This document shows positions 5,351 through 59,869 of a stretch of DNA of 64,000 bases, in pieces. Under the pieces are notes generated by a model. The model was given only the letters and a program-made list of their open reading frames with translations. It made no database searches and was not told the origin of the DNA. The DNA lies in the NCBI GenBank assembly GCA_017893485.1, contig CM030364.1:245533818-245597817 (forward strand). The letters run 5' to 3'. The DNA is from Hemerocallis citrina. Its lineage: Eukaryota > Streptophyta > Magnoliopsida > Asparagales > Asphodelaceae. How positions within the stretch are numbered: position 1 is the first letter of the stretch; each line of letters starts with the position of its first letter. Made by a program: the position numbers and the translations under genes.

Positions 5351-5415
<65 letters not shown>

Positions 5416-5699: not shown

Positions 5700-5741
<42 letters not shown>

Positions 5742-8700
5742 AAAAGGCTCCGTTGCACACTACTTGTGGTGCTCACGGCGTGAACACTACGTCTTCGGGC
5801 GTTCAAATCGAAAATCCGAACCGTTCACATTGATCTACACATCTAAATTAGTCTAAATATGTAAAATCAAATCATTTGAAATTCATTTGCCCATTCATTG
5901 AAGTATTACAAAATTGTATGGCTGAAATTCATTGTTTTTATAGTCGCGTGATGGATGGGCAAATGAATTTCAAATGATTTGATTTTACATATTTAGACTA
6001 ATTTAGATGTGTAGATCAATGTGAACGGTTCGGATTTTCGATTTGAACGCCCGAAGACGTAGTGTTCACGCCGTGAGCACCAAGGTAGTGTGCAACGGAG
6101 CCTTTCTGATGTAAAACCAACCCTAAAATAGAGAATTTTCCAAGAATTTTAATGGGTTAATTTTACCAACATGAAAGTGCGGATTTAGATTGGATATTTT
6201 AACAGTTAACAGGTTCGATGGGTTTTCAAGAATTGAATCAAATGCTAACAATCCCAATTAATAATTCAATCTTAATCAATAAGTAAATTCCTACGTGTTT
6301 TAGCAAGTAAAAAATGCAATACCAATTCGTACTCTAATCTAGCATGTGGATCACTCAATCTCAGTATTTTGTGGTCGACAGTCAAATCAGATAATATACT
6401 AGATGATAAGGCAGTAAAACACAAATACTTAATAATGAAAAGAGTATACCGAATGTGAAGAAACCCAGTGTCGATCTCAGGGTTGGACAGCAACAGCAAC
6501 ACAGTGAGCACAGTCAGCAACTCCACGAACAAGTCCACGAGGGTCGACGGCGTCGCTGATCGACGTCGACGACGGCAAGGGGCGGCGCTGGCGACGGCGG
6601 CGACGTCGTCGAAAGGTGGGGCGCGCGGAGAGCACAGGAAGAGGGAGGGCTGTCGAGGCTGTTGGGATCTGCGGGGTTAGGGTTCGGGTAGACGGGTTGC
6701 AATAGGGTCAGGGTAAGTTTGGAGGTGAGGGATTTGGTCACGGGAGTGGATCGACGGGGGTGAGTATGGTTGCAGGCGACGAGAACGGGGGTGGAGGAGC
6801 GGGATGGGGCGTGGGTTCTTGGTTCGTTTGGGACGATGGTGAAGAAGGAGGGGGAAGAAGAAGTCGACTGTGAGTGGGTTTGGTGGGGATCGGGGTAGAG
6901 AAGAAGAAGGTGAAGAAGGAGAAAGAGTGGCGGCTGGGTATGGGATATAGGATTAGGGTTTGATTAGGGGATTAGGGTTTGGATTAGGGGATTATGATTT
7001 GTATTGGGGATTTTTAAGTGGGGATAAATTTTAGAATTAATCACTAATTCTAAAACTAGATTAGGATTTATCACAAACCCTAATTTGTATCTCGGTTGTA
7101 TCACACAAAGGAGAGAAAATGAAGAGCAAAACTCAACACAGGTTTTTTTTTTATCAATAATGGCATGCTTTTATCATTAATCTCAAGGCCTTTAAATAGG
7201 CTCAATTACATCTTGAAACACATCTCCAAAATATTCTCAAAATCTAAAAATTACAAAAAGATTACATATGGCTATAATTGCCAGAAATAAAAATGGTAAT
7301 AAAATAAAAATCCTAAACTGGAAAGATGTCCTCATCATTCTCTCCGGGTGGGAGAGAGCTCGACCCAGTCGAGTCAAAACTAGTGATCCTGCCATGGTGC
7401 TCCAAAAGATCTGGATCCAGTTGCGGAAGCCCCTTACGATCACTGCAAGTATCATCCGACTTCGGTTTGTTTTTCCACCTCACCAAATACTTGTGCATAC
7501 CACCATCTCTTGTGGAGATTATCTGATCATCTAAAATATTATCTAACTCTTCTGTCGATGGGTAAGTAGTATCTGGTAGTAGAGGTAATGGGGGAATCTC
7601 ACCATTAGGCTGCAGGGTAGGCTCATCTATAAGAAAATTTCTAGGGTTGAATTCTGAGCCTTCATAAAGTACTAGATCCTCAATATTGAAAATCTTACTT
7701 ATGCCAAAACCTTCAGGAAGGTCAACGACATAGGTACTATCATTGATTGCATGTAGAATCTTAAATGGGCCTGCAGCACGTATGTTCAAGTTCTTAACGG
7801 GTCCAACAGGAAACCGTTCCGGATGAATCCGAACCATCACTTCGTCACCAATATCAAAAGTTATAAATTTCCGTCTAGTATCAGCTATTAACTTGTAGTT
7901 AAAATTATTCTCATTAAGTTCCTTGGAAATTTCTCTATGCAAGTCATGAATGTTATATGCAAATGTGGGTGCAGACTCTGTGACTTTGTGATGTTCTAAT
8001 ACATGAGTAAAATCTATGGGTTGCCAAGTAACTTGGGAAGGACTGGGTGTCTCGGGTATACTCAATAGAGGTGACTGGATAGGATGAATACAATTGAGAG
8101 ACGGGTCATTCTCTTTTTCATCAAAGTCATCACTTATATTAGGTTCATAGGTAAACTCATTGACGGGCTCATCAGCGATGACTGCGGTACCCTCTACTAT
8201 ATTAATCCTACTTGGACTAGGACAGTTGCCAGCAACATGACCGTATCCCTTACATTTATAGCACTTAGTGAGAGGGTCAATCTTACTGTAATCTCTTTCG
8301 GTGTTCTTACCCTTATGTTCATCTCTATGTGAATTAAAATTTGAATTAGATTTGCTGGGGTAAGATTTGTTGGGGTGCTGAGAGGGAGGCTGAGGTCTAG
8401 GTGGGTCAGTAGAGGTCATTCTAGAGGAATGATCTCTCGAGTCGCTGGACCTAGAATCAGAACTAGCTTTAAGGGAATCCATGTCGAGGACTAGGGCGTA
8501 GGCTGCCGCTATTGAGTCCACGTTTCTATAGATTAGCTCGTTCCTAAGGTCAGCTCGTAGTCCAGCTCTGAACCTAGAGAGAGTTTGTTCTTCACTCTCT
8601 TTACCTAACGCATTGCACCGAATAAGGAAGTCATCGAATTTATCAACATATTCTTGTGTGGATTTACTACCTTGATACAATTGGTTCCACGAATCTAGCA

Positions 8701-10689
8701 ATCGGGTGTGGAACGATAACGGTACATACCTCTCAGTGAGCTTCTCTTTCATGGCCTCCCAAGTGGCTATGGGTGCCAGGCCTCGGCCTCTGCGGGCATA
8801 TTCAAGATTGGTCCAATGTTGTTGAGCTTTACCCGTTAATTTCATAGTTGCAAATTTAACTTTAAGGGCTTCGCTCATGTCGAACCACACAAAATAGTGG
8901 TCCATGGCACGGACCCAATCAAGGTAAGCTTGGGGTTCCATGTGGCCTTCAAATTGGGGAACGTCAGCCTTAACGTTCTTTTTATATTGTTCGTCAGGGT
9001 CACGTTCTTGACGTCGATCGTCATGAACATTCCCTTGAGGGATCTGACGATGGCCATGAAGCTCAGGGATACTTGTCTGATTTAGCTCCACTTTCTCAAG
9101 CCTCTGATTGATATTGGCAAGAGTTGCTTGGATGGCAGCTAGGGTAGCGGAGATATCAGAATTGTCCATTTCAGGTCTGGGAAGTCTGGGGTTCCTAATT
9201 GGGTGATTGGGAAGGGATAGGAAAGGCTCTTCAGGGTCTGTGATGGTGCTGCGAAGACGCATTCACCAAAAGTGTGAAATAGAGTGTCCTAATTTTTTTT
9301 ATTTTTTATTTTTTATTTTTTATTTTTAATGAATCTGAAATAAACTAAAATAAAAGAAGAAAGAAGATAAAAACTACACAATCCTAAATGAATGCAAAAA
9401 TGATGCCTACGATGCAAGAACTAAAGTTTTAAGAACCTTTGCTCTGATACCAAAATGATGTAAAACCAACCCTAAAATAGAGAATTTTCCAAGAATTTTA
9501 ATGGGTTAATTTTACCAACATGAAAGTGCGGATTTAGATTGGATATTTTAACAGTTAACAGGTTCGATGGGTTTTCAAGAATTGAATCAAATGCTAACAA
9601 TCCCAATTAATAATTCAATCTTAATCAATAAGTAAATTCCTACGTGTTTTAGCAAGTAAAAAATGCAATACCAATTCGTACTCTAATCTAGCATGTGGAT
9701 CACTCAATCTCAGTATTTTGTGGTCGACAGTCAAATCAGATAATATACTAGATGATAAGGCAGTAAAACACAAATACTTAATAATGAAAAGAGTATACCG
9801 AATGTGAAGAAACCCAGTGTCGATCTCAGGGTTGGACAGCAACAGCAACACAGTGAGCACAGTCAGCAACTCCACGAACAAGTCCACGAGGGTCGGCGGC
9901 GTCGCTGATCGACGTCGACGACGGCAAGGGGCGGCGCTGGCGACGGCGGCGACGTCGTCGAAAGGTGGGGCGCGCGGAGAGCACAGGAAGAGGGAGGGCT
10001 GTCGAGGCTGTTGGGATCTGCGGGGTTAGGGTTCGGGTAGACGGGTTGCAATAGGGTCAGGGTAAGTTTGGGGGTGAGGGATTTGGTCACGGGAGTGGAT
10101 CGACGGGGGTGAGTATGGTTGCAGGCGACGAGAACGGGGGTGGAGGAGCGGGATGGGGCGTGGGTTCTTGGTTCGTTTGGGACGATGGTGAAGAAGGAGG
10201 GGGAAGAAGAAGTCGACTGTGAGTGGGTTTGGTGGGGATCGGGGTAGAGAAGAAGAAGGTGAAGAAGGAGAAAGAGTGGCGGCTGGGTATGGGATATAGG
10301 ATTAGGGTTTGATTAGGGGATTAAGGTTTGGATTAGGGGATTATGATTTGTATTGGGGATTTTTAAGTGGGGATAAATTTTAGAATTAATCACTAATTCT
10401 AAAACTAGATTAGGATTTATCACAAACCCTAATTTGTATCTCGGTTGTATCACACAAAGGAGAGAAAATGAAGAGCAAAACTCAACACAGGTTTTTTTTT
10501 ATCAATAATGGCATGCTTTTATCATTAATCTCAAGGCCTTTAAATAGGCTCAATTACATCTTGAAACACATCTCCAAAATATTCTCAAAATCTAAAAATT
10601 ACAAAAAGATTACATATGGCTATAATTGCCAGAAATAAAAATGGTAATAAAATAAAAATCCTAAACTGGAAAGATGTCCTCATCACTTT

Positions 10690-10741
<52 letters not shown>

Positions 10742-11277
10742 AAAAAGGGGTATGAGCAACTTGCTCATTTAAGTAAATGAGCAATTGATGATGTGGCAAA
10801 CATGTGACTGGAAAATCCTTAAAGAATTAGTTATCCAATGTATCACATGCATGCCACATAATCAATTGCTCATTTACTAAATGAGCAAGTTGCTCATATC
10901 CCTTTTACCCATATATATATATATAGAGAGAGTAATGTTCCGTTGTGCACTAGACCTCCATGTGCATTCGTCCTTCCCGCCTTCGTATCGACGATCCGAA
11001 CCGTTCACATTGATCTACACGTCCAAATTAGTCGAAATATGTAAAATCAAATAATTTAAAATTTATTTGCTCATCCATTATGTGACTATACAAAACAACG
11101 ATTTTCAGCTATACAATTTTGTAACACTTCAATTGATGGGCAAATGAATTTCATATTATTTGATTTTACATATATAGACTAATTTATATGTGTAGATCAA
11201 TGTGAACGGTTCGGATCGTCGATACGAAGGCGGGAAGGCCGAGTACACACGGATGCCTAGTGCACAACGGAACATTA

Positions 11278-11312
<35 letters not shown>

Positions 11313-11451
11313 ATGATTTGATTTTACATATTTAGACTAATTTATATGTTTAGATCAATGTGAACGGTTCGGATCGTCGATACGAAGGCGGGAAGGCCGA
11401 GTGCACACGAATTCCTAGTGCACAACAGAACTTTACTCTCTCTCTCTCTCT

Positions 11452-11501
<50 letters not shown>

Positions 11502-14500
11502 TGATTTTTCTTCTTTTTGACAATAATAGGACGGAGTTGTAAGAGTTCTAAAGAACTCCAGCCTGTATTTATTTTTTTATTTTTTATTTTTTATTTTTGC
11601 TTTGTCGTTTGTGGAAAGAAGACAATTTCCACAACACTAATCTAAAAATTCATGCAATATGAAATTGAAGAAGTTAAATTCACGCAACACTAGCCTTTGA
11701 CTTAAGAGAAAAGTGAAAAAGAAATTGTAGAAGTCAAAACATTAGAAAAAGAAAAGTGAAGATAGGTTCTGTGAATGAAATGGTGTTATGTAAAGACAGT
11801 ATGAATATATAAAGTAAAAGAAAATGGAATTAAAACAAAAACAAACAGAACCCCGGATTTTTGTTATGAAAATAGACAAAAAAAAATGCACATAAAAAAG
11901 CAGAAATGAAGAAATTGAGAGTACGTACCTTCCTGGAAATACACAAGAATCATGAGCTGCAAAGGGAATTGAAAAAAAAGACATTGTTAGATGTCACCAT
12001 ACTGAATTCTTTAAGAGAGTCGAGTATAAATGCAAATGTGGGTTGCACCGAAATGCCCCCTGATTCAAGGACTACTGATTATGACACCAGCATAATAAGC
12101 CATTATTGGTTCGCACATGCAAGAGGGCACAATATTTCTCTGCAAACAATTATTTTTAAAACTCTCTTCAATGGGCATATGGAACTAAACTTTTGGCCAA
12201 CTTGTTTCAATAAATCTTCAAAAGTTCTCGAAAGAGGGAGATTTTTTTAAGCTCATGCATTGCTAAGATGCAAATGTATAGATATAGGAAAGTACATATT
12301 GACTTCTAAATGAATGTAAGTAAGAATGACATTTTTAGTTAAGTTTTAACTTTGACCAGACAGTACATATCTTTCAAAATGTAGTTTCTATATGGTTACC
12401 AATAGGTTCAATTGCAATCACAAAACAAATGAGCAACATAAAACTACTTCATAATCTTTGGCTTACTTGGATCAGTAGTAGTGATCGCAGCAACCCCATT
12501 GAAGTAGCAAGTCCCTGAAGCCATTCCCATCAGGTGATAGTACGCATTAAAAGCATATGTAGCGTGCGCCTCCACTGTGTCTGGATCATAACAAGGCTGC
12601 CCTTGAAGCAATGCTGAGCAGTTAACCTTCCCAGGCCCACATGCCCAATCCAATGCCGCCTGCAACATCTTGGCATCCGACCCATCCTTCGCAATACAAA
12701 ATGTATTATTTGTTGTATCATTCGCCAGCACCATCCCTGACCCTGTCAAGTGCAGAGTGTAAACTGGCAGCCCATTCGCATCAAACAGCCCCCAAAATTT
12801 CTCAGACTCTTCTCCTGGTCTCAAATCCTCATCGTAAAGTTCATAGATGTAAGTGCTCACTGCAATGCCAGGGTGCTTTGGTGTGCCCGTGTTATTAAGA
12901 ACATGACGTATCAAGTTACTGTTGTATGTGTCGGCATTGTCCACAGTAGCATCCGGCTCATTCGCATCACCTTTCCGTGGCCAACCTGACTCGAGCACAA
13001 CCACAGGCACATTTGTCACATTCAAGTAGGCCATTGCAAAGTAGGAAGCATCCACGACCGCATCAAACACATTCATGTAGTGAAGCAGCGTGTTAGAATC
13101 AACTGCCTCTTTGTTTGGTGGCAATGGGCGAAATAGGGCATAGTCCAAAGGGATGACACCGTTTGACTGCATGTAATCGTAATAAGGATACACGTTGAGC
13201 ATTAGGTAGGAGCCAGTAGATTGAAGGAACTTGAGCATTGGGACGATAACCGGGTCCCATGAACGGTTGAAAAAGGCCTGGGAAGGAGGGAACGAGTCAA
13301 GGATGATGGAGGAGGAAAGTGGTGTGGAAACCTTGATTTGTCGGTCGAGGTTGGCAGCAACAAGTGCGGAATGGATGAATTTGAGGGCATTGACGAGGAC
13401 AGGAGCAGCATTGGGTAGGGCAGTTAGGACCTCAGAACCAACGGCTATGGCAGTGATGTTGACAGCCGGTACATGGGCGACAACATTTCGAGTAACCCAA
13501 TTGGCGGCAGTGGCATTGGACTGGCCGATGCCGAGGAGTTGCTCATTAGGGACAGATATGGTGACTTGGATGCCACTGTTTGCAAGCGCTGTCAGCATGG
13601 CGACATCGGCATCGTAAAGACGGATGTGATGAAGGTTTTGTGCCTTTAAGAGGGCGACAACTTGGGTTGGGGATGGCATATCGGATAATGCTGTTCCAAT
13701 GTTTACACCAATGAATGCATCTGAAAACAGAAAGACAGAAAAGTTAAATCAGGAAACACGCAGAAGTAAGTTCAAAATAACTTGTAAGAAATATCTGTGA
13801 GGTGATAATTAACCAGCATTGATATAAAATAAAAAACGTGCATCCATGAACACTCAAATTGGAACTCTTTGGAAATTTGCAAAAGAAAATCAGTAATTCA
13901 AGTTACAAGTGGCTATTAAGCAAAATTAGGTGTAGCACATATTTTAGAAAATAAAAATAAAATAAAATATTTTAAACGTATTTTTATTCAAAAGATATCA
14001 TGTATCTCAACAGGATAGAAGGAAAATCAGTTTCTCATCGTAGATTGTTCATATAATCCTGTAAATATTAGATACTTTCACCCTTTAACAGATAAACTCA
14101 CTAACCTCACTCCCAATCCACCTTCACCTGACCAAGAAAAGAATATGCAACACGTGCAATGTTTATCACGGTTTCATAATAGGATTAGGAGTCCCGTCAG
14201 ACCTTTTGAGCTCTAACAATTCATTGGCCAATAGGGTCCCATAGCAAACTAGAATTCTTCACGCAGTGGAAAACTAAACAGGTTGGATCTTTAAGGCAAT
14301 CAAAGCAACAGATATTCTAAAGAGACATACACAAATTCGAACTAGAGAACTAGTCACTCAACTGTTACGCCGGATGTTTGAGAGAACAAAGGAAGAGGGA
14401 AAGAGTTTTATCAGGCTTCCATATTACCTAGTTATGTTGATGCACAACAAATCCCCAACCGTGATTTCAAATACAGTCTAATTCTACCCAAAAGTAAACC

Positions 14501-25344: not shown

Positions 25345-25666
25345 ACCTTCTTGCGTCCATTCTGATTTTTTTAATTATAAATTTCGTCGGACGCAAAATG
25401 ATATTGCGTCCGAATTTTTTACAGATTTTGTTTTTAATTGGGTCAGACGCAAAATGATCTTGCGTCCGACACATTTTTTTATATAAAATTTGATCGGACG
25501 CAAGATGATATTTCGATTCCTAAATTGGAGAATTTCCTATATCTTCTCTCAAATATAGACGACTACAGTCTTTTTTTCAAAATTTGAAAATATAGGGAAC
25601 GACTACAGCGTCTCATTCCCCATATTTCCCAAATTTTGGAAATATAAGGAACGACTACAGATGCTC
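25345..25666. mobile_element. MITE unit 1 (3' part) of a head-to-tail series
   Basis: Carries the interior blocks of the family (GGACGCAAAATGATATTGCG hairpin, 'gggaacgactaca' twice) and ends 'ctacagatgctc' before TTA at 25667-25669. The head is missing. Confidence 0.7.
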
Positions 25667-25669
25667 TTA

Positions 25670-26681
<1,012 letters not shown>

Positions 26682-26746
26682 TTAGAGCATCCGCATTCGT
26701 GTATTATTTTGCCATTTTATGTATTTTATAGCTTTTGTAGCGCTGC

Positions 26747-29700
26747 TGTAACCTCTGTTTCCCTAAATATGTATTTTCTGAATATCTTTCGTATTTTGAT
26801 TAATTATAAATTCGGTATTATTTTAAACTCGATTTGGGCCTTCTATTAAAATCTTTTCGAACTGAAAATTATATTTTCTTCAAATAATAGTATATTCTAA
26901 CTTTAATGTTTATTTTCTAAGTGATCGACTATTTGTATCTTATTTTATTACTATTTAGATTTTTATAAACTTGCTTATCTCAAATCTCATTTTGATATGT
27001 ATATCAAAATCTTTATAGTTGTTAATGTTATTATCTTGATTGTAGATTTAAAAATCTATTTCTATTGATTTAAAAATCTATTTCTATTGATTTAAAAATC
27101 TATTTATATTGATTTTTGTATTTGTAGTGATTTCAAATAATTTTCATATTGTAGTACAATATATATCTTGATATATGATCCTATATTTTATTGGTTATCT
27201 TATTTTCCTATTATATTTTTAAACCAAAAACCCATCAACTTAACCATTTCCCAGACCCATTATTATCCCCAGACCCATTAACTTAAACCTATACCCATTA
27301 ACTTGGACCCATAACCCATTAAGTATCCTTACCCGAAACCCAATAACCAAATTACCCAGACCCGTTTCTCTTAACCCTAACTAATACCCCACATATATAC
27401 ACTTTTACCTTAAAACCTGTTCACTCTCCAAAAACACACAGCCGCCTCTTCCCCTGTGCCCCTTGGCGACTGCACCGCGCCACCCTCCCACTCAGCCGCG
27501 CGACTTCATCTCCCTACCCCCGATCACCTATTGCTCCTCTTCGTCAGCCCATTGCATTGCTCAACCCCGACCACAACAACAGCAGCGACAACACCCCATA
27601 GTCGCAGCCTGTCGAAGCCCCTCCTCGTCGATAGCAGACCCCGACGCTCTGCCATCGCGATGCCGTGAGGCTGCAGCACACCCCTGCATCTGTCCCTCTT
27701 GTGCGATGCACTAGTCGACCCCACCTGCAGCACCGCCCTGTCCCACCTCACGACACAGCCAGTTCCCCAGTCATGACCCCCCTGGCCACCGTCGCGCCGT
27801 CTGTCCCCTGGCCACCGAGTGCCGTCGCCGGTTGTTGCCAAGCCAGTACATCGCCTTTGATGGGTTTCTTTTTTATCAGGTTTTGATCATGTTCGATCCT
27901 GGCCGTCGATCATCACGATCATCATCATCATCATGGTGGATTGGATGTGGATCGTCCGATTTCCTCTTGATCATCACGATCATGATGATCATCAAGATTC
28001 CTTTGATCACAGCCGTTCGATCGATTGATCTTGGTAATCATCATCATCTTCATCATCAAGGAGATCTGGCCGTCCGATCTGATTCGATCATCTTGATCTT
28101 GATCTCTTGATCTCAGCCGTCCGATCAATTTTGATCATCTCGATTATCGAGATCCGTGCTTGTGTTCGTGGTTGCGATCGTGATCGTGGATTCGTGTTTG
28201 GTTTGTGATTCGTGTATTGAGTTCGCCGCCCGGGATCCATTCTCGTTGTTCTTTCGTCAGATTCATCGTCTACACCCCAAGGCAAATATCTCTTGTACAC
28301 TTCGTTTTTCTAGTACAAGCTTCCCTTAAAAATACTGCAAATAGTTTGTGATTGTGACTCCCCTTTGTTTATCGTTGATGATCTCATATTTTGCCTTATC
28401 TATTACATGATCTAAGAGTCACAACCCTTCGTTGATATATTTACAAACTAGTTGGACCCTTTTTATCTCCTAATTACTTGAACATGAACCCCTTGACTTG
28501 TAGACGTGTGAGGTATGATGTGTTGTGTTGATCTTACATTCTTTTGAGTTAAGAAATACATGTGACTTGCTGATTTGATCCCCATTGCATCCGTATTTGT
28601 ATCACACACTAATCTAGACTCATAATAGTCATTTATCATGCAACTTGTATATAAAAAAAATTCACACTTGCTGCTGTCCTTGTCTTTACTTGCTGTTTCT
28701 ACCAAAATAAAACCAAAATCTGAACTTGAGCCATGAATATGAAATGTATCCCTAAGTGTCTAGTTGCCGATAACATCCAGAATTTTTAAATTCCGAGTTA
28801 CGATCTAGGAGATATCGCAGTTTTACTGCTGCTGTGTCGGTAATCGCAGATTCACAAAAAACTGCTGCACCACCTTTGGTTTACAATTATTTTAACTATG
28901 CTACCTGTAATTAAATAACTTGAAATTTTGCATAATGTTACTGGACACCCTAGAGAACATTTCCAAATTTTCTCAGAATTAGTTAATAAAATTTCAACCT
29001 TGTTTCATATGTATAAACTCAGATTAACAAATTCTGGCAGAACACAATTGCTGTATAGTTTGCTGTTTTGACACATGTTACCACAACTTTTATGTACCTT
29101 AATTATATGCGTTGGAACCGGAAAGGAGTCTAGTTTCTAGACTTTTTGATGGATTCATATTTTCTATCTTGTAGCAACAAGAGTCGCAGTTTTGGTGCAG
29201 CAACGTCATGCTATCTAGATTTGAGATTCTCGTTGTTCTTGATACTTTGATATGTTTTGACCCTCAAACATGTATCCTACTTAGCCTAGACTTGTTCCAT
29301 GTACTTGATTATGTTTACTTGACTTGTTTCTCATACTTTCATGCTTGCTTGATGATAATAATAAATAACAAGCCGGGGTTTAAGGAAAAGACCATAGTAG
29401 TGGACAATATAGGTAAGTGTACTCGGAAGGGAGCCCGTATTTCCCACTTGATACATGCTTTATGAACTAGTTAAATTGTATCCGATTCATGAACTAGTAT
29501 ATTATTATCCGATTCATGAACTAGTATATTAATTGATTCATGAACTAGTATATATATGATTCATGACTTGACACATGAACTGGTTATATGATTACCCGAT
29601 TCATGAGCATGGCTTGCTTTGATACTTGATGTCTGAGTACATCGCTCTATAAACTCCACCACAAGGCATAAACATAACTGATTGTATGTAGCGATCATGT

Positions 29701-30548: not shown

Positions 30549-31059
30549 GTTGCAATCGTGTGCTATATATGCATAATTTAATATTTGAGCAACAACAGAC
30601 GACTATATTTGGCAGAAGAAATAACAATATGCTTATTATAACAGATAAAACATCATGTTTCGTCCCAAATATTTTATAATATTTTTTTGGGTTCCGATTA
30701 AATTAGAATTTTTTTATAATTAAAAAAACCTCAAAAAAACAAAGAAGCTCGGAAGGAACGTAATGTTTCGTCTAGAGTTCCGATTGTAAAATTTTCGATT
30801 ATTTTGGGATTCTATGGATTGGATTGCATATCACTTTCTATGGATTATTAATTGCAACCATTGTATTTTCTATGGGTTATTAATTGACTCATATGACTTT
30901 CTATAGGTCACTAACCTATAGAGATTTTTTTTTTTGAGGGAACGACTACAATGTCCGGTTTCTTTACAGATTTTGTTTTAATTGGGTCAGACGCAAAATG
31001 ATTTTGTGTTCGACACATTTTTATCTAAAATTTGATCGGACGCAAGGTCATCTTGCGTC

Positions 31060-31061
<2 letters not shown>

Positions 31062-31103
<42 letters not shown>
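31062..31103. repeat. (TA)n microsatellite
   Basis: TA tract left of half element F6. Others of this cluster are at 31256-31314, 31770-31803, 32444-32500, 36889-36921 and 37412-37452. Confidence 0.9.
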
Positions 31104-31109
<6 letters not shown>

Positions 31110-31252
31110 AATGCTCCATTGAAAACGGGTTTATTTTCACCAGGTTGGAAAACAGCGATCTCAGCCGTTGGATCGCTCTTGATCGTGATCAGCGGCTCAG
31201 ATCGCCTCCGCCTATCACCGGTTCTCACTTAAGTGGCGGAGGGTTATTTTGG

Positions 31253-31255
<3 letters not shown>
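31104..31255. mobile_element. Half foldback element F6 between (TA)n tracts
   Basis: Equals the left arm of F7 from GAAATGCTC(C/T)ATTGAAAA to 'gggttattttgggaat', then breaks directly into (TA)n. There is no second arm. Confidence 0.75.
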
Positions 31256-31314
<59 letters not shown>

Positions 31315-31317
<3 letters not shown>

Positions 31318-31737
31318 AAATGCTCTATTGAAAAGGTGTTTGTTTTCACCGAGTTGGAAAACAGCGATCTCAGCAGTTGGATCGCTCTTGATCGTGATCA
31401 GCGGCTCAGATCACCTCCGCCCATCACCCGTTCTCACTTAAGTGGCGGAGGGTTATTTTGGGAATTTCGTCCCAAATAACTCTTTGTCTGATTTGCTTTG
31501 AAAAATTGATATAACCTAGGCCGTTGTTGGGAACAACGGCCTAGGTGTTTTCATAACCTCAAAGCGAATCAGGCGAAGAGTTATTTGGGATGAAATTTGC
31601 AAAATAACCTTCCACCACTTATGTGAGAACAGGTGATGCGCGGAGGCGATCTGAGCCGCTGATCACGATCAAGAGCGATCCAACGGCCCAGAACGCTGTT
31701 TTCCAATCCGTGAAAACAAACTTGTTTTCAATGGAGC

Positions 31738-31744
<7 letters not shown>
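31315..31744. mobile_element. Foldback element F7
   Basis: Starts GCGAAATGCTC and ends with its inverse GAGCATTTC before (CT)n(TA)n. The arms (about 200 bp) carry 'cagcgatctcag' and its inverse, and GGCGGAGGGTTATTTTGGGA and its inverse. The centre is a perfect 14-bp stem hairpin, CCTAGGCCGTTGTT with loop GGG (31515-31545). No ORF. Confidence 0.82.
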
Positions 31745-31805
<61 letters not shown>

Positions 31806-32441
31806 GACGCAAGATGATATTTCGATTCCTATATTTGAGAATTTTCTATATCTTCTCCCAAATATAGATGGCTACTGTTATTTTTTCCAAAATTTGAAAA
31901 TATAGGGAACGACTACAGCGTCTCATTCCTTATATTTTTCAAAATTTGGAAATGTAGGGAACGACTACAGATGCTCTTAGAGCATCCACATTCGTGTATT
32001 ATTTTGCCATTTTATGTATTTTATAGCTTTTGTAGCGCTGCAATCGTGTGCTATATATGCATAATTTAATATTTGAGCAATAGTAGACGACTATATTTGG
32101 CAGAAGAAATAACAATATGCTTTTTATAACAGATAAAATATCATGTTTCGTCCCAAATATTTTATTTTATTTTTTTGGGATCCGATGAAATTAGAATTTT
32201 TTTGTAATTAAAAAAACCTCGAAAAAACAAAGAGAGTTCCGATTGTAAAATTTTCGATTATTTTGGGATTCTATGGATTGGATTGCATATCATTTTCTAT
32301 GGATTATTAATTGGGACCATTGTATTTTCTTTGTATGGGTCACTAACCTATAGAGATTTTTTTTTGAGGGAACGACTACAGCGTCCGATTTCTTTACAGA
32401 TTTTGTTTTTAATTGGGTTAGACGCAAAATGATCTTGCATC

Positions 32442-32537
<96 letters not shown>

Positions 32538-33356
32538 AGTCTATTATGAGATGGTGAGCGGGGCTCCTTATCTTGAGCGGGAGCTTCCAGCCATCCGATC
32601 TGAATTGATTCAGATCGAATGGCTGAGATCAGATCCCGTTCTCCATCTATTTTGTTGAGGGTAAAATGGTCATTTGACATCCTCATCTTATCTTTTGGCA
32701 TGCTGGTTCCCAACTCAAATCCCGCTCTCTTCTCGATCGTAAGAAACCCTAGCCGCGCTCTCCTTCTTCGATGAAACCCTAATCGATCTGAGAGAAACCC
32801 CCATTCTCCTTCTACGATTTCTACTTTCTGAGAGAAACCCCCAACTCTCCTGCGATTTCCCATTCTCCTTCTACGATTTCTTGGATCTGAGAGAAACCCC
32901 CAACTCAAATCCGCTGGTCGAATGGCTGTCTCTTTCTCTCTCTCTCTGCGATCGTAGATCCAAATCACCATTAGGGTTGCGAGGCGGTCTCTCTCTCTTC
33001 GACGTCAAACCCAGCTTCCGATCAGGGTTTCGATTCATCATCGATTCGAATAGAAACCCTAGCAGCCCCCAATCATTCTTACCAGGTATTCTCAGTTTCA
33101 AATTACATTTCGTTTTCTTCTTTCAAGTTTCACTATGAAAAATTGAGTCAATAGGCATCACCCTACAGAGCATTGTGCGCCATGTGTAATGATGCACAAA
33201 CATCATATAACACTGGTTAAACTATGTTAAATTATTTCAAAAGTTTGCAACTACACTGCTGAATGCATCGGAAAGTAGAAAGTAGAAACTAAGTATTTGG
33301 AGCTTGTAGATTTCCTTTGGCTAATTTTTTTACTAGTAATGTTCTTTTTTTTGTAG

Positions 33357-33933
33357 TTTGAAGAGATCCGTGATGCTGAAGATGCAATTCGTGGTCGTGA
33401 TGGCTACAACTTTGATGGCCATAGGTTAAGGGTAGGTGTTCCTTTTCTTTTGTAGATGTTATATTTCCAATGTTCTTTGCCATATATTCTATGATCTCAT
33501 TTTCTTATGTCTTACGGATTTTGTGTTTTTTTCAGGTAGAACTTGCACATGGTGGAAGAGGACATTCATCTAGTTTTGATCATCATCGCAGTTCCAATAG
33601 CGGAGGTGCCCGAGGAGGAGGTGTTTCCAGGCGTTCAAGTTATCGAGGTGAGGTTCAAATCTTTTTGCCTTCTGGTTGAGTTTTTTAGGTGATCCCTTTC
33701 ATAAGAACTTTGATTTTGATCTCACATGGGTATTGCAATGCAGTGGTGGTCACTGGTTTGCCTTCTTCTGCATCTTGGCAAGATTTGAAGGTATTGTGTA
33801 AACATGTAGTATAATTTTTTAATATTATTTTATTGAAGATGAACGGAAGTTTATATGCATCTTCTCTATGATTAGGACCATATGCGCCGAGCTGGTGATG
33901 TTTGCTTCTCTGAAGTATTTCGTGAAGGTGGAG
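33357..33933 (+). pseudogene. Captured SR34/SF2-type splicing-factor gene fragment, left arm
   Basis: Four spliced blocks keep GT/AG borders: 33357-33431, 33536-33647, 33744-33790 and 33876-33933. They join in frame to encode the end of RRM1 ([20 protein letters not shown]), the Gly/Ser/Arg-rich linker (ELAHGGRGHSSSF), and the start of the second pseudo-RRM with its hallmark SWQDLKDHMR. The family (SR34/SR30, ASF/SF2 type) sets splice-site choice in the nucleus. Missing are the start-codon exon with RRM1 RNP motifs, the rest of RRM2 and the RS domain, so no working protein can be made. A 5'-UTR-like part with telo-box motifs lies upstream (32740-33090). Confidence 0.93.
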
Positions 33934-35463
33934 GTAAGCTACATTTTAGATACATTTTGTATTGTAATGTTATCTGCTTGCACTTCAACTTTATTTTATT
34001 TATTAGCATCTTTTGTTAAGGTGCCAGACATAATTAGAGCCTGCACAAAGCCCTTTGTTTTATCTATTGGCATCTTATGTTAAGGTGCTAGACATAATTA
34101 GAGTCGGCACAAATACTGAGATGAAGTGAAGTGGGCCGAGTGGCTTTGTAGGTCTGTTTTTAGATGCATGTATATGTGTTGGATGGTATGTATATGTATG
34201 TGTATTACAGGTTAGAACACATTCAAGGTGTAATATATATAAAGTTTAGAAACACTTATGATATCAATCCCCCATGCTTCAAATTGGTGACCTGACTTGT
34301 TCGCAACTGGCAGAAAATTAGTTTGGAAAATTAGATGTGTAAAGTATGTGGATACAAGTTCGCATTTGGGGAACTTTCCTTCTGGCACCCGAAAACTGAA
34401 ATATCTATAGGGATGAGCTCCATCCTTCATTATAATATTCATGGTCATAGGTTGCCAATTTAGGACATTCCACCACATGATTGACTAATCGACAAAATTT
34501 AATGTGATCTCTATTTTATTTTATTTTAAATATTGATAAAAATGGGTTTCTAGAGCTCAGTTATCCAGCTTGTTCCATTTTGTTGAATATTAATGATTTG
34601 GAAAGTCTTTCTCAACTCTTACACAACAGAGTTTTTAGAAATTGCTCATGTTTTTAGAAATTGCTCATGTTTTTTAGCAATTCTCGTAAAATTTTTAAAT
34701 TATGAGCAATTTTTAAATTATAGCAATTATGAGAATTTCTAAAAAACATGAGCAATTTCTAAAAACTCTGTTGTGTAAGAGTTGAGAAAGACTTTCCAAA
34801 TCATTAATATTCAACAAAATGGAACAAGCTGGATAACTGAGCTCTAGAAACCCATTTTTATCAATATTTAAAATAAAATAAAACAGAGATCACATTAAAT
34901 TTTGTCGATTAGTCAATCATGTGGTGGAATGTCCTAAATTGGCAACCTATGACCATGAATATTATAATGAAGGATGGAGCTCATCCCTATAGATATTTCA
35001 GTTTTCGGGTGCCAGAAGGAAAGTTCCCCAAATGCAAACTTGTATCCACATACTTTACACATCTAATTTTCCAAACTAATTTTCTGCCAGTTGCGAACAA
35101 GTCAGGTCACCAATTTGAAGCATGGGGGATTGATATCATAAGTGTTTCTAAACTTTATATATATTACACCTTGAATGTGTTCTAACCTGTAATACACATA
35201 CATATACATACCATCCAACACATATACATGCATCTAAAAACAGACCTACAAAGCCACTCGGCCCACTTCACTTCATCTCAGTATTTGTGCCGACTCTAAT
35301 TATGTCTAGCACCTTAACATAAGATGCCAATAGATAAAACAAAGGGCTTTGTGCAGGCTCTAATTATGTCTGGCACCTTAACAAAAGATGCTAATAAATA
35401 AAATAAAGTTGAAGTGCAAGCAGATAACATTACAATACAAAATGTATCTAAAATGTAGCTTAC

Positions 35464-36040
35464 CTCCACCTTCACGAAATACTTCAGAGAAGCAAACATC
35501 ACCAGCTCGGCGCATATGGTCCTAATCATAGAGAAGATGCATATAAACTTCCGTTCATCTTCAATAAAATAATATTAGAAAATTATACTACATGTTTACA
35601 CAATACCTTCAAATCTTGCCAAGATGCAGAAGAAGGCAAACCAGTGACCACCACTGCATTGCAATACCCATGTGAGATCAAAATCAAAGTTCTTATGAAA
35701 GGGATCACCTAAAAAACTCAACCAGAAGGCAAAAAGATTTGAACCTCACCTCGATAACTTGAACGCCTGGAAACACCTCCTCCTCGGGCACCTCCGCTAT
35801 TGGAACTGCGATGACGATCAAAACTAGATGAATGTCCTCTTCCACCATGTGCAAGTTCTACCTGAAAAGAACACAAAATCCGTAAGACATAAGAAAATGA
35901 GATCATAGAATATATGGCAAAGAACATTGGAAATATAACATCTACAAAAGAAAAGGCACACCTACCCTTAACCTATGGCCATCAAAGTTGTAGCCATCAC
36001 GACCACGAATTGCATCTTCAGCATCACGGATCTCTTCAAA
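35464..36040 (-). pseudogene. Captured SR34/SF2-type splicing-factor gene fragment, right arm
   Basis: Inverted near-identical copy of 33357-33933 with the same four exon blocks on the minus strand. One coding difference is His to Arg in the linker (SFDHHR versus SFDRHR). Transcription through both copies from either side would give a long self-complementary RNA. Confidence 0.93.
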
Positions 36041-36862
36041 CTACAAAAAAAAAGAACATTACTAGTAAAAAAATTAGCCAAAGGAAATCTACAAGCTCCA
36101 AATACTTAGTTTCTACTTTCTACTTTCCGATGCATTCAGCAGTGTAGTTGCAAACTTTTGAAATAATTTAACATAGTTTAACCAGTGTTATATGATGTTT
36201 GTGCATCATTACACATGGCGCACAATGCTCTGTAGGGTGATGCCTATTGACTCAATTTTTCATAGTGAAACTTGAAAGAAGAAAACGAAATGTAATTTGA
36301 AACTGAGAATACCTGGTAAGAATGATTGGGGGCTGCTAGGGTTTCTATTCGAATCGATGATGAATCGAAACCCTGATCGGAAGCTGGGTTTGACGTCGAA
36401 GAGAGAGAGACCGCCTCGCAACCCTAATGGTGATTTGGATCTACGATCGTAGAGAGAGAGAGAAAGAGACAGCCATTCGACCAGCGGATTTGAGTTGGGG
36501 GTTTCTCTCAGATCCAAGAAATCGTAGAAGGAGAATGGGAAATCGCAGGAGAGTTGGGGGTTTCTCTCAGAAAGTAGAAATCATAGAAGGAGAATGGGGG
36601 GTTCTCTCAGATCGATTAGGGTTTCATCGAAGAAGGAGAGCGCGGCTAGGGTTTCTTACGATCGAGAAGAGAGCGGGATTTGAGTTGGGAACCAGCATGC
36701 CAAAAGATAAGATGAGGATGTCAAATGACCATTTTACCCTCAACAAAACAGATGGAGAACGGGATCTGATCTCAGCCATTCGATCTGAATCAATTCAGAT
36801 CGGATGGCTGGAAGCTCCCGCTCAAGATAAGGAGCCCCGCTCACCATCTCATAATAGACTAA

Positions 36863-36954
<92 letters not shown>

Positions 36955-36960
<6 letters not shown>

Positions 36961-37377
36961 TGCTTCATTGAAAATGGGTTTGTTTTCACGGGTTGAAAAA
37001 CAGCGATCTAGGCTGCGGGATCGCTCTTAATCGTGATCAGTGGCTCAGATCGCCTCCGCCCATCACCCGTTCTCACTTATGTGGCGGAGGGTTATTTTGG
37101 GAATTTCGTCCCAAATAGCTCTTTGCTTAATTCGCTTTGAGGTTATGAAAACACCTAGGCTGTTGTTGGGAACAACAGCCTAGGTTATATCAATTTTTCA
37201 GAGTGAATCAGGTGAAGTGTTATTTGGGGGGAAATTCCCAAAATAACCCTCCGCCACTTAAGTGAGAACGGGTGATGGGCGGAGGCGATCTGAGCCGCTG
37301 ATCACGATCAAGAGCGATCCAACGGCTGAGATCACTGTTTTCCAACCCAGTGAAAACAAACTCGTTTTCAATGGAGC

Positions 37378-37383
<6 letters not shown>
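36955..37383. mobile_element. Foldback element F8
   Basis: Second full copy of the F7 family, with central hairpin CCTAGGCTGTTGTT...AACAACAGCCTAGG. Flanked on the left by (CT)n(TA)n(GT)n (36863-36954) and on the right by (CT)n(TA)n (37382-37452). Confidence 0.82.
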
Positions 37384-37455
<72 letters not shown>

Positions 37456-37629
37456 CGCAAGATGATATTTCGATTCCTATATTTAAGAATTTCCTATATC
37501 TTATCTCAAATATAGATGGCTACTATTATTTTTTTTCCAAAATTTTAAAATATAGAGAACGACTACAGCGTCTCATTCCCTATATTTTCCAAATTTTGGA
37601 AATAAGGGGAACAACTACAGATGCTCTTA

Positions 37630-38041
37630 GAGCATCCACATTTGTGTATTATTTTGCCATTTCATGTATTTTATAGCTTTTCTAGTGCTGCAATCGTGTG
37701 GTATATATGCATAATTTAATATTTGGGCAACAGTAGACGACTATATTTGGTAGAAGAAATAACAATATGCATATTATATCAGATGAAACATCATGTTTCG
37801 CCCCTAATATTTTATAATATTTTTTTGGGATCCGATGCAATTAAAAAAACCTCGAAAAAACAAAGAAGCTAGGACGGAACATAATGTTTCGTCGAGAGTT
37901 TCGATTGCAAATTTTTTGATTATTTTGTGATTCTATGGATTGAATTGCATATCATTTTCTATGGATTATTAATTGGGACCATTGGATTTTCTATGGATTA
38001 TTAATTGACTCAAATGACTTTCTTTGGGTCACTAACCTATA
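37630..38041. mobile_element. MITE unit 5 (5' part) of the series
   Basis: Begins GAGCATCCACATTTG after the TTA of unit 4 and follows the family to 'cactaacctatag', then stops at an A-run near 38041. Confidence 0.7.
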
Positions 38042-38163
38042 GAAAAAAAACTGCACTAAAGGCGACAGAGGAAACATAAACCTGTTTAAATTTTCAGGTA
38101 AGGTCTGTGTCCCATTTGTTTTAGACTCGACACGTACCAGAATCCACTAACAATATATAGTGT

Positions 38164-48817: not shown

Positions 48818-49620
48818 ACCCGCTCACGTCCTCGCTATTCGGCATGGACTTCGAGCATCAATGAGGGATTCTACAATCGCTCAACTCCTAGCCCTCGACT
48901 GGGAAGTCACCCACTCACATCCTCGCCACTCGACATGGACTTCGAGCACCCGCGAGGGATTCTACAATCCCTCAATTTCTAGCTCTCAGCTCGGACGCCA
49001 CCCGCTCACGTCCTTGCCACTCGGCACGGACTTCGAGCACCCATGAGGGATTCTAAAATCCCTTAACTCCTATCCTTCAGCTTGGACGTCATCTGCTCAT
49101 GTCCTCGCCACTCGACATGGACTTCGAGCACTCGCGAGGGATTCTGCAATCCCTCAATTCCTAGCCATCGGCTCGGATGCCACCTGCTAAAGTTCTCGCC
49201 ACTCGGCATGTACTTCGAGCACCCACGAGGGATTTTATAATCCCTGAACTCCTAGCCCTCGGCTCAGACGTCACCCTCTCATGTCCTCGCCACTCGGCAT
49301 GGACTTCGAGCACCCACGAAGGATACTACAATCCCTCAACTCCTAGCCCTCGGCTCGGACGTCACCCGCTCACGTCCTCGCCACTCGGAATGGATTTCGA
49401 GCACCCACGAGGGATTCTATAATCCCTCAACTCCTAGTCCTCAGCTCGGACATCACCCGCTCACGTCCTCGCCACTCGGCATGGACTTCGAGCACCCGCG
49501 AGAGATTCTATAATCCCTCAATTCCTAGCCCTTGGCTCGAACGCCACCCGCTCACGTCCTCGCCACTCGGCATGGACTTCAAGCACCCGCGAGGGATTCT
49601 ACAATCCCTCAACCCTTTCG
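48818..49620 (+). repeat. Tandem array, exact 91-bp period, about 9 copies
   Basis: The block CTCGGCATGGACTTCGAGCA recurs with starts at 48843, 48934, 49025, 49116, 49207, 49298, 49389, 49480 and 49571, always 91 bp apart. The period is not a multiple of three, so the ORFs here are meaningless. It lies on the pol side of the antisense ORF. Confidence 0.95.
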
Positions 49621-53794: not shown

Positions 53795-56060
53795 AGGGGG
53801 CTCAACGCTCGGCATGTACCTCGAGCAGCGCCATAGCTTTCTCACAAGTTTAAAAGGCATGACACTCGACAGATACAGCGAGCACGAACCTAGTTTTTTC
53901 ACAAGCTGTAAGGGCTTGATGCTCGGCATGTAACTTAAGCCACGCCCTATCTTTTCTCACAGGCTGGGGGGCTCGACCCTCGGCATGTATCTCGAGCCAC
54001 GCCGTAGCTTTCTCGAGCCACAAGGGCTCGACACTCGGCATATACCTCGAGCCACGCCCCAGCTTCTCCTAAGCTACAAGGGCTCTACGCTTGGCATGTA
54101 CCTCGATCCATGCCCTAACTTTTCTCACAAACTGGGGGGTTCGATGCTCAGCATGTACCTCGAGCCACGACCTAGCTTTTCTCAAGCTACAAGGGCTCGA
54201 TGCTCAGCATGTACCTCGAGCCATGCTCTAGATTTTCTCATAGGCTGGTGGGCTTGACGCTCAGCATGTATCTCGAGCCATGACCTAGCTTTCTCACTGG
54301 CTGGGGGGCTCGACGCTCGGCATGCACCTTGAGCCATGCCCTAGCTTTTCTCACAGACTGGGGGGCTCGACACTCGGCATGTATCACGAGCCATGCCATA
54401 GCTTTCTCGAGCCAAAAGGGCTCGATCCTCAACATGTACCTCGAGCCACGCCCTAGCCTTTTTCAAGCTACAAGGGCTCGCGATTGGCATGTACCTCGAG
54501 CCATGCCCTAGCTTTTCTCATAGGCTGGGGGGCTCAAAGTTTGGCATGTATCTTGAGCCACGCCCTAGCTTTCTCACTGGCTGGGGGGCTCGACGATCGG
54601 CATGTACCTCAAGCGACACCCTAGCTTTTTTTTACAGGCTAGGGGGCTCGATGCTCGGCATGTATCTCGAGCCATGCCATAGCTTTCTCGAGGCACAAGG
54701 GCTCGATGCTCAGCATGTACCCCGAGCCATGCCTTAGCTTTTCTCATAGGCTGGGGGGCTCGATGCTCGACATATATCTCGAGCCATGCCATAGCTTTCT
54801 CAAGCTACAAGGGCTCGACGTTCAGCATGTACCTTGAGCCATGCCCCAGCTTTTCTCAAGCTACAAGGGCTCGATGCTCAGCATGTACCTCGAGCCATGC
54901 CCTAAATTTCTCACAGGGCTGGGGGGCTCGACGCTTGGCTTGTACCTCGAGCCATGCCCCACCTTTTCTCAAGCTACAAGTGCTCGATGCTCGCATGTAC
55001 CTCGAGAATGCCCTAGCTTTTCTCACAGGATGGGGGGCTTGATGCTCGGCATGTACCTCGAGCCACACCCTAGATTTTCTCAAGCTACAAGAGCACAACG
55101 CTCGACGTGTACCTCGAGTCATGCCCTACCTTTTCTCACAGGTCGGGGGGCTCGATGCTCAACATGTATCTCGAGCCATGCCCTAGATTTCTCACTGGCT
55201 GGGGGGCTTGATGCTCAGCATGCATCTTGAGCCATGCCCTAGCTTTCCTCACAGGCTGGGGGTATTGACGCTCGGCATGTATCTCAAGCCAAGCCATAGC
55301 TTTCTTAAGCTACAAGGGCTCGACGTTCAACATGTACCTTGAGCCATTCCCCAACTTTTCTCAAGCTACAAGAGCTCGATGCTCGGCATGTACCTCTCAA
55401 GCTACAAGGGCTCGATGCTCGGCATGTACCTCAAGCCACACCCTAGCTTTTCTCATAGGCTGGGGCCTCGATGCTCGACATATATCTCAAGCCATGCCCT
55501 AGCTTTTCTTACAGGCTGGGGGGCTCGATGCTCGGCATGTATCTCAAGCCACGCCGTAGCTTTCTCGAGTCATAAGGGCTCGACGCTCGGCATGTACCTC
55601 AAGCCACGCCTTAGCCTTTCTTAAGCTACAAGGGCTCGACGCTCGGCATGTACCTCATGCCACGCCCTAGCTTTTCTCACTGGTTGGGGGCTCGATGCTC
55701 GACATGTATCTCGAGCCACACCCTAGCTTTCTCACTGGCTGGGGGGCTCGACGCTCGGCATGCACCTCGAGCCATGCCCTATCTTTCCTCACAGGCAGTG
55801 AGGCTCGATCTCAGCATGTAACTCGAACCACACCCTAGCTTTTCTCACAGGTTGGGGGGCTAGATGCTCGGCATGTATCTCTAGCCACACCGTAGCTTTC
55901 TCGATCCATAAGGGCTCGATGCTCGGCATGTACCTCGAGCCACACCCTAGCCTTTCTTAAGCTATAAGGGCTTGACGCTCGACATGTATCTCAAGCCATG
56001 TCCTAGCTTTTCTCACAGGCTAGGGGGGCTCGACGGTCGACACACGACACTCGATGCTTG
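53795..56060 (+). repeat. Tandem array, 55-57-bp unit, about 40 copies
   Basis: The core GCTCGGCATGTACCTCGAGC recurs every 55-57 bp (for example 53927, 53984, 54039, 54095 and 54152). Units alternate between two forms after the core: 'ctcacaggctgggggg' and 'ctcaagctacaaggg'. The array lies directly upstream of the antisense TATA box. Confidence 0.92.
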
Positions 56061-58129: not shown

Positions 58130-59049
58130 TGGACGAGTCCCTTCACTTGTTGGAAAAGGGGACGTCGAGATTCGTGGAGTGGAAGGTCTTCTTGCCGAGC
58201 ATCTAAGGTCGGTAGACGAGCCCCTCACTTATTGGAAAAGCAAGGGACGTAGGGCTCTCAGGAGTTGGGGACTCCTTGCTGAGCATCGAAGGTCGGGAGG
58301 GGAACCCCTCACTAGTTGGAGGATAATTTGAGGCTCGCAGTGACATCCGAGCATCGATCCCAAGGTCTCTTGGCCGAGCATCGAGGGTCGATAGACGAGC
58401 CCCCTCACTTGTTGGAAAAGCAAGGGGACGTCGAGATCCGTGGAGTAGGGGGTCTTCTTACCGAGCGTCGAGGGTCGGGAGGCGAGCCCCCTCACATGTT
58501 GAAAAAGCATTGGGACGTCAAGATCTGAGGAGTAGGGGGTTTTCTTGCTGAGTATTGAGGGTCGGGAGGCAAACCCCTCACTGGTTGGGGGTAATTTGGG
58601 GCTCGCAGTGATATCCGAGCGTCGACCCCGAGGTCTCTTGGCCGAGCGTTGAGGGTCGATAGAAGAGCCCCCTCACTTGTTGGAAAAACAAGGGGACGTC
58701 GAGATCCGTGGAGTAGGGGATCTTCTTTCTGAGCATCGAGGGTCGGGAGGCGAGCCCCCTCACTTGTTGGAAAAGCAAGGGGACATCGAGATCTGAGGAG
58801 TAGGGGGTCTTCTTGCCGAGCATCGAGGGTCGAAAGGCGAGCCCCCTCACTGGTTGGGGGATAATTTGGGGCTCACGATTGCATCAGAGCATCGATCCTG
58901 AGGTCGCTTGGCCGAGCGTGGGGGGTCGGTAGACAAGCCCCCTAACTTGTTGGAAAAGCAAGGGTACGTAGGAGTCTGTGGAATAGGGGTTCTTCTTGCC
59001 GAGCGTCTATGGTCGGGAGACGAGTCCCTCACTTGTTGGGGGATAATTT
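58130..59049 (-). repeat. Tandem array, about 87-95-bp unit, about 10 copies
   Basis: GAGGGTCG recurs at 58383, 58470, 58557, 58651, 58738 and 58824, spaced 86-95 bp. The units carry 'gcgagccccctcacttgttgg' in diverged forms. Confidence 0.85.
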
Positions 59050-59660
59050 GGGGCTCGCGGTGACATCCGAGTGTCGAGGCCCAAGCTATTTAGGAGAAAC
59101 TTTTTGGGGCTCGTGGTGACATCCAAGCTTCGAGGCCCAAGCCGTCGAGAGAAACTTTTTGGGGCTCGTGGTGACATCCGAGTGTCGAGGCCCAAGCCGT
59201 TGAGAGAAACTTTTTGGGGCTCACGGTGATATCCGAGCGTCGAGGCCCAAGCCATTGAGAGAAATTTTTTGGGGCTAGCGGTGACATCTGAGCATCGAGG
59301 CCCAAGCAGTTTAGGAGAAATTCTTTGGGGCTCGTGTTGACATCCGAGCGTCGAGGCCCAAGCAGTTTAGGAAAAACTTTTTGGGGCTCGTGGTGACATC
59401 CGAGCGTCGACCTTGAAGCCGTTGCGAGAAACTTTTTAGGGGCTCGCGGTGTCATCCGAGCGTCGATGCCCAAGCTGTTTAGGAGAAACTTTTTGGGGCT
59501 CGCGGTGTCATCTGAACATCGAGGTCCAAGTAGTTTAGGAGAAACTTTTTGGGGCTTGCAGTGACATTCGAGCGTCGACCCTGAAGCCGTTGATAGAAAC
59601 TTTCTGGGGCTCGCAGTGACATCCGAGCATTGAGGCCGAAGCAGTTTAGGAGAAACTTTT
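59050..59660 (-). repeat. Tandem array, 55-57-bp unit, about 11 copies
   Basis: GGGGCTCGCGGTGACATCCG recurs at 59050, 59106, 59161, 59216 and so on. Its reverse complement (CGGATGTCACCGCGAGCCCC) aligns with the array core of the first element (CGGCATGTACCTCGAGCC). Confidence 0.88.
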
Positions 59661-59869
59661 TGTAGGAGGAATTTGGGTGAATAAAGGTGAAGTACCTGAG
59701 AGGTTGACCCTGCGCACCGAGCCGCCGCGTTGGTCGACAGAGCCGAGGGTAAGAAGGTATTTTTGCGCTCTAGGCTGACATCATCAAGATCTTAGTGGCC
59801 GTTAGATCTTGATGATGGAGATCAGATGGCTAGATCCCTTTGCGGAATTAGAGGAGTCCCGTCTGCACT

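Follow-up and report, generated by a model that had tools for sequence, protein, structure and literature searches.

How does a host gene come to lie in both arms of a long, nearly perfect palindrome? The question is raised by a locus in a 64,000-nucleotide stretch of Hemerocallis citrina (G000:C7:245533818-245597817; hereafter the window, meaning the whole stretch), which we analysed within a genome of 3.78 Gb in 701 contigs. At its middle, inverted copies of a piece of an SR34-type splicing-factor gene face each other across a very short centre. Our answer is that the palindrome is a non-autonomous foldback element of the Pack-MULE type (MULE, Mutator-like element) that targets (TA)n, is most likely Mutator-like (Jittery/FAR1 type), carries the gene inside its arms and has lost its loop; we give this reading a probability of about 0.9.

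Structure of the palindrome

The left arm (32536-34668) and the right arm (34729-36862) each measure about 2.13 kb and are separated by a centre of 60 nt. Their inverted matches (32470-33352 with 36046-36928, and 33345-34668 with 34729-36052) are complementary at 99%, and arm against arm we counted 10 substitutions in 2116 compared columns inside the microsatellite edges and additionally three 1-nt indels. A sequence-only reading had described a 4.3-kb near-perfect palindrome with arms of about 2.1 kb and a short centre, which agrees with this geometry. It had also treated the span 32501..36888 as an SR34 palindrome; the inverted SR34 copies are there, but SR34-type gene makes up only the inner ~1.5 kb of each arm, the outer ~616 bp being a transposon terminal inverted repeat (TIR), and the element ends at about 32536 and 36862, within (TA)n/(GA)n microsatellite.

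From left to right, a flank of (TA)n followed by (GA)n (32444..32535), the probable insertion target, leads into the left TIR proper (32536..33151, + strand; the TTAGTCTATTATGAGATGG... end), of which arm positions 1-506 or 1-617 recur inverted-paired at other loci. The captured piece of the left arm follows (33152..34658, sense on the + strand) with exons A (33357..33431, 75 nt), B (33536..33647, 112 nt), C (33744..33790, 47 nt) and D (33876..33933, 58 nt), all on the + strand. The centre (34669..34728, 60 nt) is AT-rich with short local duplications and may be the scar of a lost loop. Beyond it lies the captured piece of the right arm (34738..36246, sense on the - strand), whose exons, placed on the - strand from the arm alignment and the left-arm exons, are D (35464..35521), C (35607..35653), B (35750..35861) and A (35966..36040). 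The right TIR proper (36247..36862, - strand) borders a flank of (CT)n(TA)n(TG)n (36863..36957), after which a second small foldback begins.

Hairpin-read artefacts can yield near-perfect palindromes, and a single SR34-bearing element mirrored during assembly or library preparation would take just such a form. This explanation is hardly credible here: the arms differ privately at the substitutions and indels given above, the microsatellites at the two ends differ in length, the left and right outer flanks correspond to opposite sides of a single host repeat (on the right only past the second small foldback), and inverted-arm sister loci occur on two other contigs, C11 and C1. Local gene duplication was dropped as a candidate, given flanks that consist of transposon ends and TA repeats and three loci with different flanks; the same difference in flanks disfavours an origin of the three loci by segmental duplication.

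The captured gene and its donor

Each of the four exon blocks is bounded as AG|...|GT, and joined at these GT-AG borders exons A-D form an open frame of 97 codons (FEEIRD...SWQDLK|DHMRR...FREGG), in keeping with the four spliceable blocks per arm noted earlier. The captured piece, in our reading, runs from the end of RRM1 through the linker into the start of RRM2 of an SR34/SF2-type protein; neither the start-codon exons nor the RS domain is present in the window arms. Pfam recognised one RRM_1 stretch in the captured piece and two in the protein assembled from the exons of a paralogue on C4. Compared with the PDB set, that C4 protein, which contains nothing from the window itself, matched a chain named 'serine/arginine-rich-splicing factor SR34' (1.1e-113).

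When the genome was first searched with the complete left arm, 40 of 1362 candidates were scored, and the resulting copy count is a lower bound. A search with the exon-bearing 608 bp scored all of its 13 candidates and gave 14 matches. These comprise both arms of three loci (the window, C1:47.68M and C11:49.19M) and the genes on C5 (98%) and C4 (92%). A single C398 locus contributed two fragments and C1:50.14M one small piece, and the three remaining matches were distant (75%). The C5 gene contains the SR34 coding blocks known from C4, one of them with a 10-residue gap. Its stretch corresponding to the left-arm piece, positions 5730-7233 in gene orientation, is 97.3% identical to that piece (97.6% for the right arm). 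Since C5 differs from the window arms at only 28-30 of 1498 columns, far fewer than C4 (148-150 of 1408-1409), the C5 gene is likely the donor or the nearest copy of the donor found. Thus, the captured fragment has an identifiable parent, as a Pack-MULE should, and the genome-wide search for a donor gene led to an SR34-type gene. One intron of the C5 gene (L033/L051) exceeds its C4 counterpart by about 3 kb; the extra piece ends in (CT)n(TA)n some 500 bp before the capture point and resembles a long interspersed nuclear element by eye only.

Sister elements and the capture junction

The search for further copies with the same ends yielded two sister elements (C1 and C11) and one chimeric relative (C398). 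In the sisters, which carry the same arms, ~3.4 kb (C11) and ~3.0 kb (C1) separate the paired parts; on C1 the right arm is shorter (1567 bp), and the C11 loop holds 3' exons of the same SR34-type gene. The window copy may be read as a loop-deleted form of such a sister-type element.

The switch from TIR to gene occurs at the same base in all six SR34 arms and in C398. It runs from TIR ...GAGTCAA to TAGGCATC... of the gene (in a longer view, TIR ...ATTGAGTCAA followed by TAGGCATCACC... of the C5 intron), so that the captured piece begins inside an intron. At this position five TIRs of four SR34-less members run on as ...GAGTCAATATGGCC, and the micro-homology at the junction is a shared TA only. 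One capture event would explain all SR34-bearing arms. At 10 columns all six arms agree with one another and differ from C5; of these columns, C398 has the C5 base at 3 and the arm base at 7. Within its fetched stretch, C398 (L034, C398:248500-256000) has SR34 in one arm only; a short tree left its placement unresolved, and the suggestion that it is a relic of a one-armed ancestor falls short of proof.

Other related elements also carry gene fragments. One (L038, C1:50135000-50141200) holds SecA fragments together with 220 bp from the same SR34 gene, hence two captured genes, and another (L037, C9:131987500-131996500) holds a fragment of an RPE65-like carotenoid oxygenase that lies just over the cut-off. 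Of the 10 interior open reading frames (ORFs) of family members compared with Pfam, 4 gave nothing, and L039 and L042 have ARPC4 matches that fall below the curated cut-off. A FAR1 piece in L039 was rejected as a captured gene, a transposase remnant being more likely (171 bp, 78.6% to the transposase-bearing L052 described below). No gene was apparent in the inner-arm frames of L036, L045 and L048 on a reading by eye, with no search made.

Element family, insertion target and transposase

The end motif TTAGTCTATTANGAGATGGNNAGCNGNNCTCCTT occurs exactly 518 times in the genome (253 + 265), and a control gave 0. When convergent neighbours within 40 kb were paired among 100 listed places of these 518, 36 end pairs emerged with a median length of 8.96 kb, and 6 neighbours within 40 kb were differently oriented. 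The interior of one 8.97-kb pair (L052, C1:148529109-148538077) contains two open frames of 416 and 339 codons, which are separated by one stop and are probably exons. They carry FAR1 (4.1e-19), MULE transposase (2.4e-32) and SWIM (8.4e-8) domains, and the TIRs of this element (468 bp, 99.6% identical) are set in (TA)n. A genome search with the first L052 frame scored 100 of 10983 candidates, and the following counts refer to the matches listed. All 100 were 97-100% identical and 85 had no internal stop. FAR1-MULE transposase frames are enclosed by 15 of the 36 end pairs. Within the range of the listed ends, 15 of 20 transposase matches sit inside pairs; four of the other five have one listed end no further than ~8 kb away, and C1:9436852 has no listed end nearby.

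Long TIRs of the kind known from MULEs are likewise present in the family, with 506-617 bp of outer TIR shared and paired arms of 0.5-2.2 kb that are 86-99.9% identical. As to the target, 30 of the 31 printed family-member ends adjoin a TA run, either directly or via a short GA run, one of the runs being short and interrupted. The window element itself lies within the (TA)n of a host repeat, for which the window offers a related empty site: a host-repeat copy with an uninterrupted (TA)21 at 26440..26530. The window flanks match this copy on both sides (32298-32485 with 26324-26506, and 37411-37691 with 26466-26746), so insertion into a TA microsatellite, the habit of (TA)n-targeting elements such as MuTAnT, Micron and TAFT, is seen against an empty site that is paralogous. 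The earlier proposal of a gene-capturing transposon as the maker of the palindrome gains from all of this, namely from a likely donor, sister copies, shared ends and the transposase of elements whose end is closely similar.

Several observations weigh against our interpretation. The window element itself contains no transposase that we could find, and its arm shares with L052 only the first 87 positions, at 78% (~130 bp at 85% for the sisters on C11 and C1). All 15 pairs with a transposase come from the 26 of the AAGAGATGG end subtype. The ATGAGATGG subtype, to which the window element belongs, is represented by 10 pairs, and none of the matches among the 100 of 10983 candidates scored falls inside one of them. 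Thus, a transposase accompanies the end motif overall but only in the AAGAGATGG subtype, and it is by the shared outer end that the element is assigned to Mutator. For the same reasons cross-mobilisation is something that we infer, and the window's end subtype may depend on the transposase of the other subtype. Further, the flanks are (TA)n, in which no target duplication (9-11 bp in MULEs) is readable, and the left end of the C11 copy, the sole printed end without a TA flank, is unlike its partner end. Finally, C398 is a chimera that mixes two TIR types, its left end lies outside the fetched stretch, and its one-armed state may be a loss.

Arms that evolve together

The sequence-only reading had taken the similarity of the arms as a sign of either recent origin or ongoing gene conversion. 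In 10 of 1559 columns present in all six SR34 arms, the two arms of one element have a state in common that occurs in no other arm. The eight pairings that break every true pair give 0 such columns, and the six that keep one true pair give 3-4. In a tree the arms cluster by element, with supports of 98/97, 89/89 and 87/86, only the first of which passes the tool's star. A second sub-family behaves alike (8 versus 0 shared private columns; three elements, 1474 columns), and a third points weakly in the same direction (2 versus 0; four elements, 668 columns), as arms from different elements of this sub-family can be as little as 1 column apart, which makes them as close as arms of the same element. 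Recurrent methylation-type mutation was dropped as a cause of the shared changes, with five of the 10 columns being transversions (327, 328, 603, 1196 and 1565). Judged by the donor, columns 1478 and 1485 are C-to-T and 1222 is A-to-G; columns 177 and 213 are transitions of unassigned direction.

The arms of one element thus appear to have been copied onto each other, and both gene conversion and re-formation at transposition fit this pattern. Arm identity alone is therefore no clock for insertion and a 99.5% palindrome need not be newly made. Of the earlier claim, copying between the arms is supported by the privately shared mutations. An alternative would have each copy undergo its own inverted duplication, the palindrome being re-formed from one arm every time. 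The 10 columns of private sharing would follow from it, and C398 offers a relative with SR34 in one arm. On the other hand, the six arms have an identical junction and are uniform at the 10 columns differing from C5, and the within-element mutations shared by two other sub-families with ordinary TIRs are less simply explained by repeated re-formation. We consider independent re-formation unlikely, although it deserves to be kept in mind.

For the Pack-MULE-type element that we favour, the following course of events is proposed. The SR34-type gene would have been captured at a TA micro-homology during repair, and the second arm might then have been extended by copying the first, either when an excision break was repaired or by a template switch from one long TIR to the other. 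The loop would later have been lost in the window copy while arm-to-arm gene conversion continued, and elements whose end is closely similar might have supplied the FAR1-MULE-SWIM transposase for its mobilisation in trans.

Consequences for RNA

A transcript begun in either TIR would fold into a duplex of ~2.1 kb. This raises the alternative, favoured by the sequence-only reading, that the locus is an endogenous hairpin-RNA gene, in which a transcript from a TIR promoter gives rise to 21-24-nt RNAs that lower expression of the SR34 donor gene. By symmetry, transcripts from either side would read sense and then antisense. The predicted RNA fold reaches -4012.9 kcal/mol with 2109 of 2117 left-arm bases paired with their mirror, and the perfect duplex runs extend up to 541 bp. 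Even after removal of the three sense introns, 3826 of 4035 bases are predicted to pair, and 188 of the 272 21-mers of the spliced left-arm exons match the C5 donor (76 of 272 match the C4 paralogue). The potential of Pack-MULEs to regulate their parental genes is also named in the accessible part of PMC3310237. However, of the three copies just the window's is nearly loopless, the captured exon frame of one C11 arm is interrupted by a stop, and RNA from the locus could mean silencing of the element itself. In genic MULEs of rice, 24-nt small RNAs and methylation are present and vary with age (PMC4858842), and silencing directed at the element itself is therefore the default expectation. We regard a dedicated hairpin-RNA gene as rather improbable.

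A duplex, if made, would mainly feed the silencing of the element, and the silencing of SR34 could be a side effect. The likeliest host role is none, and a hairpin that lowers SR34 is possible, though with long odds. Likewise, it is a distant prospect that the family pulls captured genes into its TIRs and matches them by conversion, thereby creating self-maintaining hairpin loci, and that the window hairpin tunes SR34, a general splicing factor.

Sequence context in the window

The insertion site has attracted more than one kind of element. A second small foldback family (ends GCATTTC...), flanked by (TA)n, has inserted at 36957-37381 and 31104-31741 into TA tracts of the same host repeat, at 36957-37381 even into the tract that holds the SR34 element, and two element families thus share a (TA)n target. 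Copies of this repeat (25480-26750, 30551-32500 and 37437-38043) are mirror-like around the (TA)n, one being empty and the others foldback-filled.

Further away, direct repeats of 1.23 kb (6107-7337 and 9456-10685; 99.7% identical) flank an ORF (7313-9262) with Retrotrans_gag, a Tf2-1-like SH3 and a sub-threshold Chromo domain, and no polymerase domain occurs in that ORF; the region 6107-10685 looks like a young long terminal repeat element with gag. Beside it lie inverted repeats bounded by TA tracts (5354-6105 and 10693-11499; 84-91%). A long beta-1,3-glucanase-like ORF (GH17 and X8) occupies 12447-13748 on the - strand, and long tandem arrays of 91-, 57/113-, 268- and 56/111-bp units in GC-richer sequence are found at 48818-49613, 53796-56042 and 58132-59662. 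Rfam at gathering scores gave no match in the window, and ARAGORN no tRNAs.

Comparison with known systems

Of the published systems compared, the closest is MuTAnT/AutoMuTAnT of Medicago truncatula (PMC4486113, used here, like the papers below, from its accessible portion), with which the SR34 element has in common a probably Mutator-like nature, foldback TIRs and insertion into (TA)n microsatellites. As in MuTAnT, there is a relative with a Jittery-like mudrA transposase, and target duplications are mostly unreadable. However, MuTAnT copies mostly measure 200-300 bp, whereas the paired arms here reach 0.5-2.2 kb, and the terminal sequences differ (published mask GGGGTTTGCTAGAACA, here TTAGTCTATTAWGAGATGG), so the SR34 element is not a member of the MuTAnT family. 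Moreover, that portion of PMC4486113 describes no capture of host genes, while here one arm set carries a gene.

Captured host exons with introns, amplified together with the capture, are shared with Pack-MULEs, including tandem-TIR MULEs (PMC3310237). In these the gene fragment lies between the TIRs, whereas in the window it is within both arms, which makes the element a hairpin (the C11 loop holds 3' exons as well). Galileo of Drosophila mojavensis (PMC3573991) has also recruited internal sequence into its TIRs, and recombination and conversion between long TIRs have been proposed for it, but it belongs to the P superfamily and the text available describes no host gene in its arms. Tm1 of root-knot nematodes, a Mutator/Foldback element (PMC3169594), resembles ours in its Foldback-like composite TIRs of variable length and its Mutator-type (Phantom-like) transposase and differs in its readable 9-bp target duplications and in TIRs made of short repeated motifs.

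Among the papers listed by our literature searches, judged by titles and abstract openings, no case of SR34 in such an element, no Pack-MULE with a gene in its arms and no captured host gene in both arms with the loop lost was found. Inverted-duplication loci that make small interfering RNA (siRNA) or microRNA (miRNA) (PMC3237417) share with the SR34 element inverted copies of a transcribed gene, the difference being that ours is a mobile element known from its DNA sequence. Mu killer, soybean CHS and rice Lgc1 are loci of this type. One genome holds the likely donor, a relative with SR34 in one arm, sisters with loops and a copy almost without one, which together outline a route from a host gene to a long inverted repeat, the raw material that the inverted-duplication model of plant small-RNA genes assumes.

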